This document shows, piece after piece, positions 3,249 to 62,615 of a DNA stretch of 64,000 bases. Positions within the stretch are counted from its first letter, which is position 1. Every line of letters starts with the position of its first letter. The notes under the pieces are model-generated. The model was not told the DNA's origin and ran no database searches. It saw only the letters and a program-made list of their open reading frames with translations. The stretch covers positions 1 to 64,000 of the forward strand of contig NZ_JBFHGL010000008.1 in assembly GCF_041583195.1 (NCBI RefSeq). Reading direction: 5' to 3'. This DNA is from Sulfurimonas sp. Its GTDB lineage: Bacteria; Campylobacterota; Campylobacteria; Campylobacterales; Sulfurimonadaceae. The position numbers and the translations under genes were made by a program.

Positions 3249-3659
3249 ATGGAATTTAGTAAAACAGAAAATATTTTATCATCTATAGTTGATATACTAA
3301 AACATATAGATGATGTTCAAAACGATGTAGTGGAACTATCTGAACGCTCCGTTTTAGGCTTCAATAACTTCCTTGAGGAGAATTCTATACAACCAAATGA
3401 AAAAATACTAGAAGTATTTCAGTATAACGATATAATAACTCAACAGTTAAGTGCAGTAAGTGATGCCATTGCTATGATAGAAAAAAATATAGACATTTAT
3501 CTTCATGCAGTTAAACACGACCAAAATGCACTAGGTGACAGTATAGATAAATTATCTGGAAAATTAATGCAGTCACTTAAAAAAGCAAAAGAGAAACAAC
3601 AAGCATTTAGTGGAAATGCTCTAAGAACAGAACATACTGAATCTATAGAGTTTTTTTGA
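3249..3659 (+). CDS. CheZ-like CheY-P phosphatase (putative)
   Basis: A 136-aa, all-helical protein at the end of the chemotaxis run, with AAAGGG upstream of the ATG. Residues 58-66 (QYNDIITQQ) match the CheZ active-site pattern aromatic-x-Asp-hydrophobic-x-x-Gln: E. coli CheZ uses Asp143 and Gln147, here Asp61 and Gln65 with the same +4 spacing. The protein ends ESIEFF after a flexible stretch, reminiscent of the CheZ C-terminal CheY-binding peptide. It is shorter than E. coli CheZ (214 aa). Campylobacterota are known to carry remote CheZ homologues, so this call is reasonable but rests on a short motif. A structural adaptor without phosphatase activity is the alternative. Confidence 0.6.
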   Translation: MEFSKTENILSSIVDILKHIDDVQNDVVELSERSVLGFNNFLEENSIQPNEKILEVFQYNDIITQQLSAVSDAIAMIEKNIDIYLHAVKHDQNALGDSIDKLSGKLMQSLKKAKEKQQAFSGNALRTEHTESIEFF

Positions 3660-3672
3660 AGATATTAATTTT

Positions 3673-3705
3673 CTATACAAAAGCCTAAAACAGACTATTG
3701 TATAG
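3673..3705. terminator. Inverted repeat between convergent genes, possible weak terminator
   Basis: Perfect 8-base arms CTATACAA (3673-3680) and TTGTATAG (3698-3705) enclose a 17-base loop between the convergent cheZ-like gene and efp. No T-tract follows on either strand, so termination is only a guess from position. Confidence 0.35.
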
Positions 3706-3723
3706 TTACTAAATTATGAAAGA

Positions 3724-4290
3724 TTATTTTACTTTTTCTAAGTATTCACCATCAACAGTGTTAACTTTGATAGTATCACCTTCTAATACGTGATATGGTA
3801 CTTGAACAACAGCACCACTCTCTAAAGTAGCAGGTTTTTTACTTCCGCTTGAAGTATCGCCTTTAAAGTTTGGCGGAGTCTCAGTAATAACAAATTCCAT
3901 AACTTCAGGAGCAGCAACACTGATTGCATCACCTTTATAGAATATAATATCTACATTAACACCGTCTTTAAACCATTTAGATGCATCATCGCACTGATCA
4001 TATGAAAGACCTAGTTGATCGTAAGTCTCAGTATCCATAAACTGATACATATCACCATCATCATAAAGAAATTGCATAGTTTTGTACGTTATTTCAGGTA
4101 CTTCAAACTTATCACCTGCGTGAACAGTTTTTTCAACTACTTTGCCATTTAAAAAACTTTTCATTTTCATACGAACAAAAGCCGCACCTTTACCAGGTTT
4201 AACGTGTTGAAATTCAACCACTTTATATGGAACTTCACCAACAATTAAACGAACATTCTTTTTGATATCACCCATACCAATTGTTGCCAT
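3724..4290 (-). CDS. efp: Elongation factor P
   Basis: Binds between the P and E sites of the ribosome and relieves stalling at consecutive prolines. The 188-aa length is typical. The N-terminal KOW-like domain carries the loop PGKGAAF with Lys34 at the position that is beta-lysylated in EpmA-type systems (an Arg would indicate rhamnosylation); whether it is modified here cannot be told. Two OB-fold domains follow, with the conserved C-terminal GDTIKVNTVDGEYLEKV. The start is fixed by AAAAGG upstream of the ATG. Confidence 0.97.
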   Translation of the reverse strand: MATIGMGDIKKNVRLIVGEVPYKVVEFQHVKPGKGAAFVRMKMKSFLNGKVVEKTVHAGDKFEVPEITYKTMQFLYDDGDMYQFMDTETYDQLGLSYDQCDDASKWFKDGVNVDIIFYKGDAISVAAPEVMEFVITETPPNFKGDTSSGSKKPATLESGAVVQVPYHVLEGDTIKVNTVDGEYLEKVK

Positions 4291-4354
4291 TAAATATGCC
4301 TTTTAAAAAAAATTTTGTTATTTTACAAAAAAAGGACTTAAAAGATAGAAAAAG

Positions 4355-6784
4355 TTAATTTTCTCTATATACTCTTACTTGATTTCTACCTTTATCTTTT
4401 GCCTCATAAAGGGCTATGTCTGATTTTTTTATAAGATCTTCTACCAGTTCTTCATCTGTTAATGAAGATATACCGATGCTGACAGTTATACTTAAAAGAT
4501 GCTCTTCACAATCCATTTGCAAGTCTTCTACAGACTCACATATCCTTTTAGCAAACATTTTAGCACCCTCTAAAGATGTATTTTGTAATACTATACAAAA
4601 CTCCTCACCACCTACACGACCAAAAAGATCACTTTTTCTAAGAAGACTTGACACCTTGTCTGTGAACTTTATAAGTACACAATCCCCTGCTTGATGTCCG
4701 TAAGTATCATTAATATTTTTAAAATAGTCCAAATCCAAAGATAGCATTTGCAACTCACCGTTATTTCTTCTTGCTATCTCAAAATATTTTGTTGCAAACT
4801 TCATAAAATGTGCACGATTACTTATACCTGTTAAGAAGTCTTGATTAGCTAAAACTTTTAGCTTTTTATTTACTTCTATAAGTTCTTTTGTTTTCTCTTT
4901 AACGGTGGAATCTAGTTGCCTACTGTATTTATAATCATAAAATAATCTTGCTATTAATAATAAGGAAATAACACCAAATAGATATAAATATGTAGCATAC
5001 TCTTTTACAATATCTTCAAAATGTACATGAATATTTTCATATGGTTCAAGACGAAGGTCCTTTAAAACTGTGTGAACAGATGAATAGTCAAGTGGAACAG
5101 TCCACCCTTTGATATTGTTACTGTTTATATCATCTTCGGTAGCCTCATAAGACACTAGTTTAGCCAAAAGTTTATTGGATAAATAATCAGATGTATGTTT
5201 TAGTTTTGCTATCGGCCATTCCGGGTATAGTTTTGTACTAACTAAGTATGGAAAATCATCATACTCTACTGGAGATATTACTTTTATATCCGAAAGTTTA
5301 ATTTTTCCCTCATTTTGCATTCTCTCCAAAGTATCAGTTCTGACCGTTCCTACATCAATACTTCCCTCCAGTACTGCATTTACAACGGCATCATGTGTAC
5401 CTAAAAATTTTAATTCTAAATCATCCACATCTATGTCATTTTTAAGCATTTCCTCATAAGCCATGATCCATCCACCAAAACTTAATCTGCTTACAGCACC
5501 AAAAGTTTTATTTTGTATGTCTAAAATATTATTAATTTTTTTATTAGTGCTTTTAGTAAAAATAACCCCTCCAAATTGTTTGAGTTCATACCTGTTAAAC
5601 TTATCCGAATTTACTAAAGTAGCTATCCTAGATACTCCAAACTTAGCTTCCAAAATAACGTAATACATTGTATTTGTAATTACAAAATCTATTTTTTTAT
5701 CTCTTACACTATTTTGCATCTCACTGAAACTTAGCGGAACTATTTTAAAATTGTAATATTCCAGTTCATTATTTAAGTATTTAGCCAATGAACTCCATCT
5801 TCTAAGCGTCTCTTTGGCTCCGCGCTTTGCTAAAACTCCTATTTTAATATCTCTTTTAAATTCATACACAAACTTATCTACATCACAACCACCATTCATC
5901 ATCCCTCTAAGTTGAAAAACTTTGGCGATAGATTTTATTTTTTCCTTATTTACAGAAAAAAACGGTATCTCTTTTATCATTGAGAATTTTTTTAGTGAAT
6001 ACCCCTCATGAATTAAACTATCCAAACTTTTATTCTGTGTATTATATTTATCAAAAATTATTTTAGAGCTCTCTTCTATATTTTTATATGCCCATATCCA
6101 GCCTTTTACTGTCGCTTCCCTAAAAGCTTTTAGCCTTTGAGGATTTTCTTTCATCTCTTTCTCAGAAGTAAACAACAGATCTTCATAAAAATCAAATCCA
6201 TATTCAGCCGGATCAAAAATATTATATTTCACATTCTTTTTATCCAGTAAATAGGCTTCATTTGAAATATATGATGCCATTGAATCTGTTTTTTTATTGA
6301 TCAGGTCATTATAATTAAAAGAGTGTGATTGAATTGTATAATCATCTTTATCTATACCGTTAGATAACAGCATAGCTAAAATAGATGCAGATTTCTTAGC
6401 ATCGTTCGTAATCATTATTTTTTTATTTTTTAAATCTGTTATATCTTTAATTTTAGGATCTGTTGTTATAAGAACTAATGGAGATCTTTGAAATGCCGCA
6501 CCAAATACGACTATTGGTTTTGCAGAGTTTCTTTCTATAATAAGCGATGATCTACCGATACCGTAAGTGCTATTTCCAGATAAAACTTCACTTACTACAT
6601 CCATATTTTTTTTGTACTCTTTTATATCTACTTCTAAACCTGCATCTTTATAAAAACCCTTCTCTTTGGCAATATAATAACCTGCAAACTGAAACTGATT
6701 TTTCCATTGAAGTTGAAGAGATATTTTTGAAGTGGAGGCATAGAGTGAAATTGAAAATAAAATAAAAAACAAAAAGAATTTCAT
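4355..6784 (-). CDS. Diguanylate cyclase with two periplasmic substrate-binding modules (NMT1/THI5-like and PhnD-like)
   Basis: An 809-aa membrane sensor predicted to make c-di-GMP. It has a signal peptide (1-17), an NMT1/THI5-type binding module (about 20-290, with FQFAGYYIAKEKGFYKDAG), a second binding module of the phosphonate-binding type (about 310-570, with DIKIGVLAKRGAKETLRRW), one membrane segment (about 598-618), a short coiled linker, and a GGDEF domain. The active motif is GGEEF (725-729), and RKSD five residues before it is a feedback-inhibition I-site. Ligands are unknown; NMT1/THI5 modules bind pyrimidine precursors, sulfonates or similar. The gene is monocistronic between efp and the divergent tgt. 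Confidence 0.9.
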   Translation of the reverse strand: MKFFLFFILFSISLYASTSKISLQLQWKNQFQFAGYYIAKEKGFYKDAGLEVDIKEYKKNMDVVSEVLSGNSTYGIGRSSLIIERNSAKPIVVFGAAFQRSPLVLITTDPKIKDITDLKNKKIMITNDAKKSASILAMLLSNGIDKDDYTIQSHSFNYNDLINKKTDSMASYISNEAYLLDKKNVKYNIFDPAEYGFDFYEDLLFTSEKEMKENPQRLKAFREATVKGWIWAYKNIEESSKIIFDKYNTQNKSLDSLIHEGYSLKKFSMIKEIPFFSVNKEKIKSIAKVFQLRGMMNGGCDVDKFVYEFKRDIKIGVLAKRGAKETLRRWSSLAKYLNNELEYYNFKIVPLSFSEMQNSVRDKKIDFVITNTMYYVILEAKFGVSRIATLVNSDKFNRYELKQFGGVIFTKSTNKKINNILDIQNKTFGAVSRLSFGGWIMAYEEMLKNDIDVDDLELKFLGTHDAVVNAVLEGSIDVGTVRTDTLERMQNEGKIKLSDIKVISPVEYDDFPYLVSTKLYPEWPIAKLKHTSDYLSNKLLAKLVSYEATEDDINSNNIKGWTVPLDYSSVHTVLKDLRLEPYENIHVHFEDIVKEYATYLYLFGVISLLLIARLFYDYKYSRQLDSTVKEKTKELIEVNKKLKVLANQDFLTGISNRAHFMKFATKYFEIARRNNGELQMLSLDLDYFKNINDTYGHQAGDCVLIKFTDKVSSLLRKSDLFGRVGGEEFCIVLQNTSLEGAKMFAKRICESVEDLQMDCEEHLLSITVSIGISSLTDEELVEDLIKKSDIALYEAKDKGRNQVRVYREN

Positions 6785-54754: not shown

Positions 54755-56569
54755 CTAGAGTTGATATTTAACTTGTAATTTTTCTGGAAAATCCCATACG
54801 CCTTTTTGTTTTAAAGATTCAATTACACTAGGTGTACAATCAACATCATCAGGCCACCTTCTAGTAAAACCATCAAACTTATTTTTATTTGTACCGTCTA
54901 TTCCTACCATTAAACCAGATATAAATATATCTCTCTGTGCATCTATATTATTCGTAACACGCCATAATGTCATATAAGCATTAAATACATCATTGGCTTT
55001 TTCATCTATAAATACCACTATACGTATATTTGTACTCAAAGGTACCAATGCTTCAAAATACTCTTTTACGTTTTTAGATTTATTTACACTAATAACAGTT
55101 ATTGGGTTTTTAGTTCTGCGCATAAACTGATGTAATTCAACGGCGTCTGGGATCAACTCTTTTACCTGCTTTAACAACTCTTCATCACTTAATAAGTTAG
55201 GGGCTTCTACTTTATGAGCGGCCGTTGCATCAATACCTAACTTACCACCTACAAGCTCTTCGGGTGATGAATGATCAAGTGCGTCTAAAATACCCTCTGT
55301 AATAAAAAGAGACTTAGGTGTAAAACGATTTAATATATATGTAGTGAGAGCTTCATAATTATCAAGCTTTGGGGCCTTTTCATCCAAGAATATTGCATGT
55401 TTTACAAAACTCATCTGCCCTGCTCCCCAAAAAGCATGCATAAACTGTTTAGCATGTCCTTTATACAACGGTTGCATTTTTGCCATTATAAGATTATGAA
55501 AACCTGCATTCTCTGGCATATGATAATCGAGCAGATCTGGTGCAGTTGTTTTTAAAAGAGGAAAGAATATTTTTCCTGTAGCCCAACCCATATACTTATC
55601 TTCCAAAGGCGGTTTCCCTACAACAGTAGCTAAATATGTAGGTTTTTTCTTAGTTGTTATAGCACTAACTTTCATACATGGATACATCTCTTCTAAAGTA
55701 TAGTAACCAGTATGATCACCAAACGGTCCTTCTAATTTTAAATGTTCCGTATCGACCCAACCCTCGATTACATAGTCTACATCTTTAGGTATATACAACG
55801 GCGTTGTAAGAGATTTTACAAGTTGTGCCGGTTTTTTAGTGATAAGCCCGTACATTAAAAGTTCATTTACTCCATACGGTAGTGGAGCCGTTGCACACCA
55901 CGTATATAAAGGATCTCCACCTATTGCAACTGAAACAGGCATTTTTTTACCTGCTTTTTGATACTGATCAAAAAAGTGTGAAGAGTCTTTATGGATCTGC
56001 CAGTGCATTCCTAACGTGTCTTTGTCATAAACTTGAAGTCTATACATACCAAGATTTACCATCTCTCCATCAAGGCTCTGTGTATAAACCTGTCCCATTG
56101 TTATAAATGGACCACCATCTTGTTCCCAAGTTGTTAAAACAGGGATACGTGAAAGGTCTATATTGTCATCTTTATATATAACTTCCTGACATTCACCTTT
56201 ACCTTTTAAACGTTTTGGAAAAATGTTTTTTAAACTAAAAAGCTCACTCGCCATAGAAAATTTCTCTTTAAAACCTGATGGCGGCTTCATATGTAATAGT
56301 TTACTTATCTCATCAGCAACTGATTCAATAGTACGACCAAAAAGTAATTCGCATCTTTTATATGAACCAAATACGTTCATTAAAATAGGTTCTTCAAACT
56401 TTTTTCCCGTTTTTTCTTCTACTGCATTTGTAAATAGAAGGGCTTTCCCCCCACCCTCTTTTTTAACTTCTGCATATGCTAAATGTGGTATTTCTAAATA
56501 GATATCAAGTGGCGTATCTATAACTGTTAATTCATCATGTTTTTTTAGTAAATTTATCGTATTTTTCAT
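54755..56569 (-). CDS. UbiD-family decarboxylase, probably menaquinone (futalosine pathway) decarboxylase
   Basis: A 604-aa prenylated-FMN-dependent decarboxylase. Active-site segments are LEGPFGDHTGYYT (Glu and metal/flavin region), DVDYVIEGWVD, and GHAKQFMHAFWGAGQMSF. The ~600-aa length and KHDELTVIDTPLDIYLEIPHLAYAE N-terminus match the menaquinone-biosynthesis decarboxylase of Campylobacterota rather than aromatic-acid UbiDs of about 490 aa. A flavin prenyltransferase partner must lie elsewhere. An extended -10 sits seven bases before its ATG. Confidence 0.88.
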   Translation of the reverse strand: MKNTINLLKKHDELTVIDTPLDIYLEIPHLAYAEVKKEGGGKALLFTNAVEEKTGKKFEEPILMNVFGSYKRCELLFGRTIESVADEISKLLHMKPPSGFKEKFSMASELFSLKNIFPKRLKGKGECQEVIYKDDNIDLSRIPVLTTWEQDGGPFITMGQVYTQSLDGEMVNLGMYRLQVYDKDTLGMHWQIHKDSSHFFDQYQKAGKKMPVSVAIGGDPLYTWCATAPLPYGVNELLMYGLITKKPAQLVKSLTTPLYIPKDVDYVIEGWVDTEHLKLEGPFGDHTGYYTLEEMYPCMKVSAITTKKKPTYLATVVGKPPLEDKYMGWATGKIFFPLLKTTAPDLLDYHMPENAGFHNLIMAKMQPLYKGHAKQFMHAFWGAGQMSFVKHAIFLDEKAPKLDNYEALTTYILNRFTPKSLFITEGILDALDHSSPEELVGGKLGIDATAAHKVEAPNLLSDEELLKQVKELIPDAVELHQFMRRTKNPITVISVNKSKNVKEYFEALVPLSTNIRIVVFIDEKANDVFNAYMTLWRVTNNIDAQRDIFISGLMVGIDGTNKNKFDGFTRRWPDDVDCTPSVIESLKQKGVWDFPEKLQVKYQL

Positions 56570-57856: not shown

Positions 57857-58744
57857 TTGAAAATATTAATTATAGAAAACGAAGTATATTTAGCACAAAG
57901 TATAGCAACAAAACTTGGTGATCTAGGTCATGTATGTGAGATGTGTACGTCAACTAGAGATGCTATTAAGAGTAACAGCTACGATGTAGTACTATTATCT
58001 ACAAACATAAACGGTCAAGACTTTAACCCTGTTATTGAAACTTTTAAAAACTCTATCATAATTTTAATGGTGTCATATATATCAAATGATACCGTATCAA
58101 AACCTTTAGCCGCAGGTGCAAAAGATTATATACTAAAACCTTTTATGATAGAAGAGCTTGTTAGAAAAATAAACCATTACCAAGATTATGAAAAAGTTAA
58201 AAAACGTAATATTGCTTATGAAAAATATCTAGCGCACTCTTTTGCAAACATATCAAACGATTACAACCATGAAGAGATTGAACTTCCTGTTTTTGTTTCA
58301 TCAGGTTTTATTAAAAACATAGATGCATTTGCGTTTGAACATGCTCGCATTAAAAACAAGGCAATAAACTTTATCTCTTTAAATGATCCTAAAGCTATGT
58401 CTGAGATAAATGCTACAGGACCAAATACAATACTCTATATAATAGACTACCAATCACTAAAAAAAGGTGAAAGAAAAGCCTTTTTAGAAGTTATAGCAGA
58501 CAAACAAGCCATTATAGCCAACAGTGATAAAGTTGACGATGTTGACTTTAACGTTATTGAGATCAAGAGTGACAACAACGTCTTTGATCAAGGTGAAATC
58601 CTTCCTATAGAGGATTATGTTAAATTTATTGTTTTAAATTATCAAAATAAATTTCCAGATACCGAGCTTTCTAAAAAACTAGGTATATCACGTAAAAGCT
58701 TATGGGAGAAACGTAAAAAATATGACATCGTCAAAAAGAAATAA
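57857..58744 (+). CDS. HP1021-like atypical response regulator
   Basis: A 295-aa transcription regulator with a receiver-like N-terminus (about 1-120) in which the phosphoacceptor is Ser48 (YDVVLLSTN) while Lys94 remains, an unrecognised middle (about 125-255) and a C-terminal Fis-type helix-turn-helix (about 266-290, DTELSKKLGISRKSLWEKRKKY). Starts TTG at 57857 (AAAGGG upstream). It directly follows ispDF, as HP1021 follows HP1020 (ispDF) in Helicobacter pylori. HP1021 is reported as a redox-responsive regulator; a similar role here is inference. Confidence 0.85.
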   Translation: MKILIIENEVYLAQSIATKLGDLGHVCEMCTSTRDAIKSNSYDVVLLSTNINGQDFNPVIETFKNSIIILMVSYISNDTVSKPLAAGAKDYILKPFMIEELVRKINHYQDYEKVKKRNIAYEKYLAHSFANISNDYNHEEIELPVFVSSGFIKNIDAFAFEHARIKNKAINFISLNDPKAMSEINATGPNTILYIIDYQSLKKGERKAFLEVIADKQAIIANSDKVDDVDFNVIEIKSDNNVFDQGEILPIEDYVKFIVLNYQNKFPDTELSKKLGISRKSLWEKRKKYDIVKKK

Positions 58745-60423: not shown

Positions 60424-60444
60424 CTTTTAAAATAATCTATTTTT

Positions 60445-60453
60445 TGTTATAAT
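60445..60453 (+). promoter_or_regulatory. Extended -10 promoter of the 710-aa signalling gene
   Basis: TGTTATAAT preceded by a T-run, 30 bases before the ATG at 60483, with AACAAGG as ribosome site. Confidence 0.7.
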
Positions 60454-60482: not shown

Positions 60483-62615
60483 ATGAAAAACTTTTTTCTT
60501 ATTTTTGTCATTCTAAGTGCACCTCTTTTTGCAAGTACATTAGGTACTAATGAGGAACTAACTATGTTAGTTGCCCTTTTTGCATTAGCATTTATAGGTA
60601 TTATTTCTCTATTTTTATCCTCTAAACAACTCTCCAAAGTAAAATCTGAACATGCACAAATGATGAAACATCAAGAAGAGATAGAACACCGCCAGAGTGA
60701 ACTTCTTGTAGAAATGAGTAAAAACATACAAAATATTACTAAAGAAACACTTGGTGATACTACAAAACTTAAAACTACTAATGAGTCTGTACAAAAACAT
60801 ATTAGTAAAGTTATAAGCTCTGAAAACACTATTATAGATGCAACTAGTGATTTAATTGAGTTCTTACAAATTAAATCTAAAAAAGTCCATCCGTTAAATG
60901 AAAATTTTAAACTTGAAAACTTGCTAAACGACATACTTGGACAGATAAAAACAAACCACAGCGAAATAGACTTAGAGCTAATCTTTGATGTGGATGACAA
61001 TATTCCTGATATGTTAAATTCAGACACGCTTGGAATATCAAAAATTCTAGTCAATCTTATAGAGTTTTGTATAGTAAACTCTTCTAAACAGATAGCTGTT
61101 CAAGTTTCTAAAAGAAGTAAATTCAATGCACCTACTACACTACATTTTGTTGTTTACTCAAATACAATGGTTACAGTTAGTAAAGATATTTTTAAAACAA
61201 AATATAATGAACAAACAAAAAAATACGATGGTATGGCACTATTTGTATCGTATGAGCTTGCTGAACTTATGGGTGGTACTATTATTGCAAGAAACAATCA
61301 TCAAAACTCAAATGTTGAGTTTGTATTAAACTTACCATACTATGAAGTAAACGCAAACACACTTAAAGAAAATAGACTTAATACAAAACTAACTCAAAAT
61401 CAAAAAATATTTCTTGTTGACTCTTCATATGAAACAACACTTGCAATAAAAAGAATTCTTCAAACAATAAAATGTGATGTCGACACGCAAACAAAAGAAG
61501 AATTTTTAAGTAAAACACCTGATCTTTCAAAATATACAACGATTTTAATAGATGAAAAACTTATCAATTCGACATTTACAAAAACTATCTCAAATATTCA
61601 AAAAGATAAAAGACCAAATCTATTAACCCTAAGCAATATATTTGCCAAAACTTCAAAAAAGAATATTGATGCTATTAGTCTTCATAAACCACTTACAAAA
61701 GAGAGTATCTTTTATACTTTATCTGAATTTAACAAGTCTGATAAAACTATTGAAAATAATACTAGCAATAAAAAACTGCTAGTTCATAGAGATCGTTTCG
61801 CAGATGCTCCAAATATTAAGCTGGAAAGTTTCGCACATTTCTCAGATACCAACTTATTAATTGTAGAAGATAATTTGATAAACCAAAAAGTTTTGACCAG
61901 TGTGCTTAAAAAATCAAATATGAATATCACTATTGCAAATGACGGTCAGGAAGCGGTTGATATTTTAAATGATAATAATCAATTTGATATGGTATTGATG
62001 GATATCAACATGCCGATCATGGATGGGTATGAAGCTACTAGGAAAATTAGACAAAATAAAGATCTAGATATGGTTCCGATTGTAGCTCTTAGTGCATTAA
62101 CAGCTGCAGATGAAATTAATAAAGTTTTTATTGTAGGAATGAACGGATATCTATCAAAACCATTAGAAAAAGAGAAACTATATACAGCATTTGATAAGTT
62201 TATAAATAAAAAGAACTTTGTTGAAAGTGCTTCTAGTGAAGATCTATCTCAAGAGGTTGAAATTAAAAACTTAGATGGTTTAAATGTAGAGAACGGTTTA
62301 AAACAGGCAGGTGGAAATCCTATTTTTTATATAGAAGTTTTAAAAGAGTTTGTTGATGCTTATGGAGACAGTGACGTTGTATTTGAAAAACTTGTTTATG
62401 AACACAGATTTGAGCAGGCAAGAATGTTATGTTTAGATATGCGTGGACTTGCAGGTGCCGTTGGTGCTGATGATATGCAAGAGTTTTCAAGTGAAATACT
62501 TCAAAAAATCATATTTAAAAAATATGACATGCTTGGAGATTATGTAAAAGCATATAAAGAGAAGTTGGCTATATTAAACAACTCTATTGAAAAGTATATA
62601 TCTGTTAATTCATAA
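60483..62615 (+). CDS. Hybrid histidine-kinase-like protein lacking phosphoacceptor histidines
   Basis: A 710-aa membrane protein. It has a signal-like segment (1-18), TM (about 26-46), a coiled segment, a HisKA-like region (about 75-150) where the H-box His is Lys80 (EMSKNIQNI), and an HATPase-like region (about 170-290) without the N, G1 and G2 boxes (NLIEFCI, SNTM, GMAL). A degenerate receiver (about 307-415) follows, then a complete receiver (about 455-575, Asp507, Ser537, Lys559) and an HPT-like end (about 600-705) with Leu651 in place of the His. Kinase and relay activity are unlikely; the second receiver may still sense phosphate from another kinase. Confidence 0.88.
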   Translation: MKNFFLIFVILSAPLFASTLGTNEELTMLVALFALAFIGIISLFLSSKQLSKVKSEHAQMMKHQEEIEHRQSELLVEMSKNIQNITKETLGDTTKLKTTNESVQKHISKVISSENTIIDATSDLIEFLQIKSKKVHPLNENFKLENLLNDILGQIKTNHSEIDLELIFDVDDNIPDMLNSDTLGISKILVNLIEFCIVNSSKQIAVQVSKRSKFNAPTTLHFVVYSNTMVTVSKDIFKTKYNEQTKKYDGMALFVSYELAELMGGTIIARNNHQNSNVEFVLNLPYYEVNANTLKENRLNTKLTQNQKIFLVDSSYETTLAIKRILQTIKCDVDTQTKEEFLSKTPDLSKYTTILIDEKLINSTFTKTISNIQKDKRPNLLTLSNIFAKTSKKNIDAISLHKPLTKESIFYTLSEFNKSDKTIENNTSNKKLLVHRDRFADAPNIKLESFAHFSDTNLLIVEDNLINQKVLTSVLKKSNMNITIANDGQEAVDILNDNNQFDMVLMDINMPIMDGYEATRKIRQNKDLDMVPIVALSALTAADEINKVFIVGMNGYLSKPLEKEKLYTAFDKFINKKNFVESASSEDLSQEVEIKNLDGLNVENGLKQAGGNPIFYIEVLKEFVDAYGDSDVVFEKLVYEHRFEQARMLCLDMRGLAGAVGADDMQEFSSEILQKIIFKKYDMLGDYVKAYKEKLAILNNSIEKYISVNS

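Follow-up and report, generated by a model that had tools for sequence, protein, structure and literature searches.

The stretch of Sulfurimonas sp. DNA that we analysed (64,000 nucleotides, hereafter the window) carries an open reading frame on the plus strand that starts with ATG and encodes a protein laid out like a hybrid histidine kinase. The features of the locus, all on the plus strand, are as follows, with the evidence for each in parentheses.

60426..60453, +, promoter-like site TTTAAA-16-TATAAT with an extended -10, TGTTATAAT (consensus scan and sequence)
60483..62615, +, whole gene, TM-pseudoDHp-pseudoCA-REC1-REC2-pseudoHPT, 710 aa (open reading frame, orthologues, AlphaFold model with mean pLDDT 82)
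60483..60623, +, N-terminal hydrophobic helices, residues 1-47 (sequence; model helices 2-20 and 24-95)
60681..60875, +, pseudo-DHp, residues 67-131, with the Lys80 codon (60720-60722) at the phospho-His position (alignments)
60900..61352, +, pseudo-CA, residues 140-290, an ATPase fold lacking the N, G1 and G2 boxes (Pfam, alignments, AlphaFold, Foldseek)
61398..61718, +, receiver 1, residues 306-412, partly degenerate, with Asp357 at 61551-61553 (alignments)
61851..62207, +, receiver 2, residues 457-575, complete, with the Asp507 codon at 62001-62003 (Pfam E 2.7e-26; conservation)
62274..62609, +, pseudo-HPT, residues 598-709, with Leu651 (62433-62435) at the His position (alignments, AlphaFold, Foldseek)

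Residues 1 to 47 form a signal or transmembrane helix followed by a transmembrane helix, and the protein has no sensor domain. The initial annotation had given the gene a strong promoter; a consensus-like site does precede it, but promoter-type sites in the scanned region were no commoner than chance (22 found versus 20.1 expected), and we treat the site as a candidate.

Catalytic residues and folds of the window protein

Alignment with intact kinases placed Lys80 where the phospho-His of the H-box belongs (VEMSKNIQNIT in the window protein versus ANMSHEIRTPM). The ATP site is lost as well, with NLIEFCIV at the N-box (NLLxNAIKF in intact kinases), YSNTMVT at G1 (DTGIGI) and DGMALF at G2 (TGLGLS). 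A Pfam scan of the protein detected no HisKA domain and gave HATPase_c only below the cut-off (E 0.018). As judged from sequence and model, the window protein cannot autophosphorylate by the known route or chemistry. We looked for a substitute His in the DHp and HPT regions and dropped the idea, as none was well conserved there; the most frequent one, H641, is present in 8 of 28 orthologue rows. Residue N81 of the pseudo-DHp is conserved (22 Asn and 3 Ser among 25 readable rows) and position 84 is variable; because position 84 varies despite N81, a phosphatase-like motif in this domain is speculation.

Among the features of a functional hybrid kinase, the window protein keeps a complete receiver, in receiver 2 alone. 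Its active site (E462, D463, D507, S537 and K559) supports the earlier claim that only the second receiver is complete, and it is the sole Pfam match above the cut-off. E462, D463 and D507 are invariant across the 28 core rows, and receiver 2 is intact throughout the full-length relatives. Receiver 1, which had been called degenerate, is so in part: D313, D357, S384 and K402 are present, but the second acid of the DD pair (now S314) and the MPxxDG loop are lost. Its Asp357 is not conserved, being kept in 16 of the 28 core orthologue rows.

Leu651 occupies the position of the HPT His, with Asp652 (H+1) and Gly655 (H+4) retained; Lys80, Asp507, Ser537, Lys559 and Leu651 are exactly the residues that the initial annotation gave. 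Pfam detected no Hpt domain in the protein, which means that standard annotation overlooks this domain. When modelled alone with AlphaFold, the C-terminal domain had a core pLDDT of about 97, and its top Foldseek matches were HPT domains (3myf, BarA 3iqt and ArcB 2a0b); the 3myf match has a TM-score of 0.89 normalized to the target, with Foldseek E-values that are modest (0.017 at best). The domain thus combines an HPT fold with the absence of a phospho-His, as expected of a pseudo-HPT. In the full-length model, built from 34 sequences, CA, REC1, REC2 and the C-terminal helical domain are well folded, and DHp is the least confident globular part. Full-length Foldseek matches were ShkA (6qrj, the best) and histidine kinase cores that include RetS and DivL (4q20); the best NCBIfam match was BarA, at 168 bits against a cut-off of 890. 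By alignment and predicted structure, then, the window protein has one complete receiver, with Asp507, and a well-folded HPT-like domain that lacks its His.

Orthologues, selection and the history of the losses

Full-length relatives with entire open frames are present in many Sulfurimonas and Sulfurovum genomes. In a search across the class, 35 of 298 genomes gave a strong match. These comprise 20 genomes out of the 27 listed for the window's family (f1, apparently Sulfurimonadaceae; one of the 20 is a receiver-only match), 12 of f6 (apparently Sulfurovaceae) and 3 borderline cases elsewhere, among which L186 and L188 retain the HPT His. The substitutions recur in the orthologues, which the initial annotation had wanted checked: no close orthologue has a His at either position. 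The H-box mostly reads MSENI where intact kinases have MSHEI (19 Glu, 3 Asn, 2 Asp, 1 Lys and no His among 25 readable core orthologues), and the HPT His is missing in 83 of the 84 rows of the clade in our first tree. Orthologues with intact His residues, which that annotation had named as evidence against its reading, were sought; there are none in the window's 42-row clade, and one or both His occur only in deeper relatives. Canonical hybrid kinases retain the HPT His, including three in the window's genome (L004, L005 and L007). The published background rate of a missing His is 0.9% for HisKA and 0.9% for Hpt domains (PMC12632262).

From all fetched loci, which come from sulfur-oxidizing bacteria with genomes of the Sulfurimonas/Sulfurovum type, we collected 112 distinct receiver-pseudo-HPT cassettes (profile score above 185 bits), a number that is not a frequency since the cassettes were chosen for their missing HPT His. 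The His position holds Leu in 81, Val and Ile in 7 each, Arg and Met in 6 each, Lys in 3, and Thr and Phe in 1 each. The flanking residues are far more uniform: H+1 is acidic in all 112 (107 Asp, 5 Glu), H+4 is Gly in 102, and the receiver Asp is retained in 111, with Asn in the other. In yeast Ypd1, a small residue at H+4 matters for the arrangement of the partner receiver's active site (PMC6341664), and the retention of Gly there without the His suggests that a receiver still docks on the pseudo-HPT. We also considered Asp652 as a newly gained catalytic residue, an idea that is weakened because the His-keeping relatives L057, L195, L196 and L186 also have Asp or Glu at H+1.

We estimated selection by pairwise Nei-Gojobori counts in several orthologue pairs that do not include the window protein, because at 54% identity even the closest relatives of that protein are too far removed. 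Ratios of dN/dS, for which some synonymous rates were near saturation, were low in all domains apart from the N-terminal TM/coil: 0.03-0.14 for DHp, 0.09-0.21 for CA, 0.08-0.18 for REC1, 0.05-0.09 for REC2 and 0.03-0.10 for the pseudo-HPT. With substitutions common to the whole orthologue clade, these values support the proposal that selection keeps a pseudo-kinase scaffold.

The relatives form a graded series. L186 has both the H-box His and the HPT His. L195, L196 and L057 (a 901-aa gene at 3423-6125) have lost the H-box and keep the ATP boxes and the HPT His, and the HPT domain of L195 is still recognized as Hpt by Pfam. The converse state, an intact kinase with the HPT His lost, is found in L020 and L119-L122. 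Genes of this L020 type (L118-L124) are found near guaA-hemD and lptD in some of the genomes and combine an intact H-box and ATP site with a dead HPT domain and a SPOR-like N terminus. Loss of the ATP site is likewise graded: some Sulfurovum members have G1/G2-like motifs (DTGLGL, GLGLF), and N, G1 and G2 boxes are retained in L056, L057, L058 and L074. In the window's clade both His are lost. Finally, in Sulfurovum L062-L064 the kinase part is deleted and REC2-pseudo-HPT kept; L053/L055 are full length at the same locus, which holds lptD, a phosphoribosyltransferase gene, PNPase and an ATP-synthase-c-like gene. Living intermediates therefore span the range from an apparently active phosphorelay kinase to a kinase-free receiver-pseudo-HPT protein. 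On a tree built with the motif columns masked, the base of which is poorly resolved, the HPT-His state changed at least four times; three of these changes are forced by well-supported branches, and a regain of the His is formally possible. At least three changes of the HPT His suggest that it became dispensable repeatedly in a fold that was retained.

A shorter TM-receiver-pseudo-HPT family, of about 340-640 aa, is widespread. It includes the second pseudo-HPT gene of the window's genome (L002/L138), beside proA and near rsmH; at 538-2286 of L002 (C2 of that genome, about 215.4-217.2 kb) it encodes a periplasmic domain followed by TM, REC and pseudo-HPT. A periplasmic domain resembling SPOR is present in some relatives: of seven N-terminal domains scanned, three matched PF05036 (best E 3e-5), with weak profile-profile similarity to true SPOR. 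Pfam detected no SPOR domain in the periplasmic domain of L002 or in the window protein. The literature that we searched, mostly without subscription journals, contained nothing on this pseudokinase/pseudo-HPT family.

Genomic neighbourhoods

The nearest orthologue loci (L038 and L039) share with the window the upstream genes ispDF-RR-sat-pgpA. Downstream they have a different, convergent gene in place of the window's PAS gene. The gene had been placed next to energy-taxis genes, a description that found no support: its surroundings offer a single candidate, a PAS protein of 187 aa, and we rejected an energy-taxis link since that gene is missing at the nearest orthologue loci. Other orthologues lie among housekeeping genes (lysS-[gene]-glyA, near lptD and PNPase) or elsewhere.

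Within the shared upstream order, window positions 57857-58744 encode a regulator with a REC domain and a Fis-like HTH and a TTG start. This regulator and its gene order presumably correspond to HP1021/Cj1608 (CemR) of Helicobacter and Campylobacter. A functional link between the pseudokinase gene and this HP1021/CemR-like regulator, three genes upstream, was not retained, as the arrangement occurs only in the window and L038/L039 and is absent from the other orthologue loci that we read. Elsewhere in the window, positions 54755-56569 encode a decarboxylase of the UbiD family whose C-terminal part gives a weak HAD-like match (E 0.0092).

Across the orthologue loci there was no consistently adjacent signalling partner except in L056, L057, L058 and L074. 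There, a short receiver-pseudo-HPT gene lies directly 5' of the full-length gene, the two being closely spaced or overlapping, and this tandem arrangement suggests that the short and full-length proteins act together. A neighbour of L048 that clustered with receivers turned out to be a GGDEF protein.

Proposed function and comparison with known systems

We propose, with a probability of roughly 45%, that the window protein is a membrane-anchored pseudo-hybrid kinase that serves as a phosphorylation-input scaffold. Asp507 would be phosphorylated from outside, by another kinase, another HPT domain or acetyl phosphate. The pseudo-HPT would dock a receiver, either the protein's own REC2 or that of another protein, and would not pass the phosphate on, so that at the membrane a phosphate signal would be converted into one of conformation or assembly. 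The pseudo-DHp and pseudo-CA may act as a dimerization or partner-binding platform that evolution can dispense with. Several observations favour this scaffold: the conservation pattern of the 112 cassettes (receiver Asp kept, HPT His lost, acid at H+1, Gly at H+4), the intact HPT fold, the purifying selection on every domain, the retention of REC2-pseudo-HPT after deletion of the kinase part, and the breadth of the separate TM-REC-pseudo-HPT family, with a member in the window's genome. A precedent is DivL of Caulobacter crescentus, a pseudokinase with neither kinase nor phosphatase activity that binds DivK~P (PMC4211667). The suggestion of the initial annotation that the protein may bind a phosphorylated receiver partner is plausible. 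Since the dead parts are under selection and the losses recurrent, these parts appear to be re-used as docking surfaces and not to be decaying. Against the scaffold, the analysis turned up no partner kinase or receiver, the neighbourhoods are of housekeeping type and not conserved, and the acid at H+1 is also found in His-keeping relatives and hence is no novelty of the dead form.

We tentatively extend this proposal to a clade-specific class in which receiver and pseudo-HPT may form a terminal, non-transferring module. The relay would be stopped by design, with the HPT fold turned into a phospho-reader or an output for docking, and the kinase part would have been lost step by step to leave TM-REC-pseudo-HPT proteins, some with a SPOR-like envelope domain.

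Other explanations account for part of this evidence. The pseudo-HPT could be a decoy that binds receivers belonging to other hybrid kinases and keeps them from relaying phosphate to active HPT domains, as proposed for plant AHP6, which has Asn for His and would compete with functional AHPs (PMC7402358). The kept fold and docking Gly, the lost His and the presence in the window's genome of other hybrid kinases with an intact HPT His all suit such a competitor. Yet AHP6 stands alone, whereas the pseudo-HPT here invariably has a complete receiver fused beside it, and a decoy has no need of a phosphorylatable Asp of its own, although the receiver Asp is among the most conserved features; we consider this role unlikely. 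Rather less probable is a RetS-like partner whose pseudo-DHp would heterodimerize with an active kinase and switch off or tune it, as RetS does by replacing the DHp-DHp interface of GacS (PMC12148439). The structural matches include the cores of RetS and DivL, and some genomes (G001, G008, G017 and G028) also encode a related, active L020-type kinase. However, the window's genome has no such kinase (the best match, 31% identical, belongs to another hybrid-kinase family), many relatives lack DHp/CA yet retain REC-pseudo-HPT, and DHp is the part in which the model is least confident. The phosphate sink of the initial annotation, in which Asp507 merely drains phosphate from other relays, suits a complete receiver with no onward route; in its pure form it fits poorly, because a sink needs the receiver alone, yet conservation of the pseudo-HPT extends to proteins whose kinase part has been deleted, and the selection on pseudo-HPT, CA and REC1 is left unexplained, so that we regard it as improbable. 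Decay of a functionless gene, for which the many lost catalytic residues might speak, has a negligible probability and is ruled out for the family by dN/dS of about 0.03-0.21 in all inactive domains, by full-length open frames in many genomes and by a strictly conserved receiver 2.

Domains with a missing His are rare and tend to be regarded as single curiosities. In this case an entire lineage lacks it, after more than one loss, and retains the fold and the receiver Asp next to it. The role of a phosphotransfer domain that can no longer transfer phosphate thus becomes a directly testable question in bacteria.

The window protein shows the traits of a pseudo-histidine kinase, namely a retained kinase fold, absent catalytic residues and purifying selection. 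Its domain order is that of BarA/GacS-type unorthodox hybrid kinases, but BarA has the H-box His, the HPT His and the ATP site, all missing here. The best full-length structural match, the Caulobacter hybrid kinase ShkA, consists of a kinase core, a pseudo-receiver and a receiver; it is catalytically active, lacks an HPT domain and is under c-di-GMP control. RcsD of enterobacteria is a membrane protein in which a kinase-like core that does not autophosphorylate is followed by an HPT domain. Relatives L195, L196 and L057 resemble that state, a dead core with the HPT His kept, whereas the window protein has lost this His, which is functional in RcsD, and has a complete receiver of a kind that RcsD lacks. 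DivL has Tyr in place of His, PAS sensor domains, and neither receiver nor HPT domain; the window protein, in contrast, has a complete receiver and a dead HPT domain. The two are alike in having a histidine kinase fold with the phospho-His replaced, and ATP binding by DivL is impaired (PMC4211667); the DivL structure is among the Foldseek matches noted above. AHP6/APHP1 of Arabidopsis shares with the window pseudo-HPT the HPT fold and a replaced His (PMC7402358), but it is a stand-alone plant protein with Asn for His, whereas the window domain has Leu and forms part of a membrane protein, joined to a receiver. By the features that we compared, the window protein falls outside the DivL, RetS and AHP6 families, which we regard as functional precedents for it.
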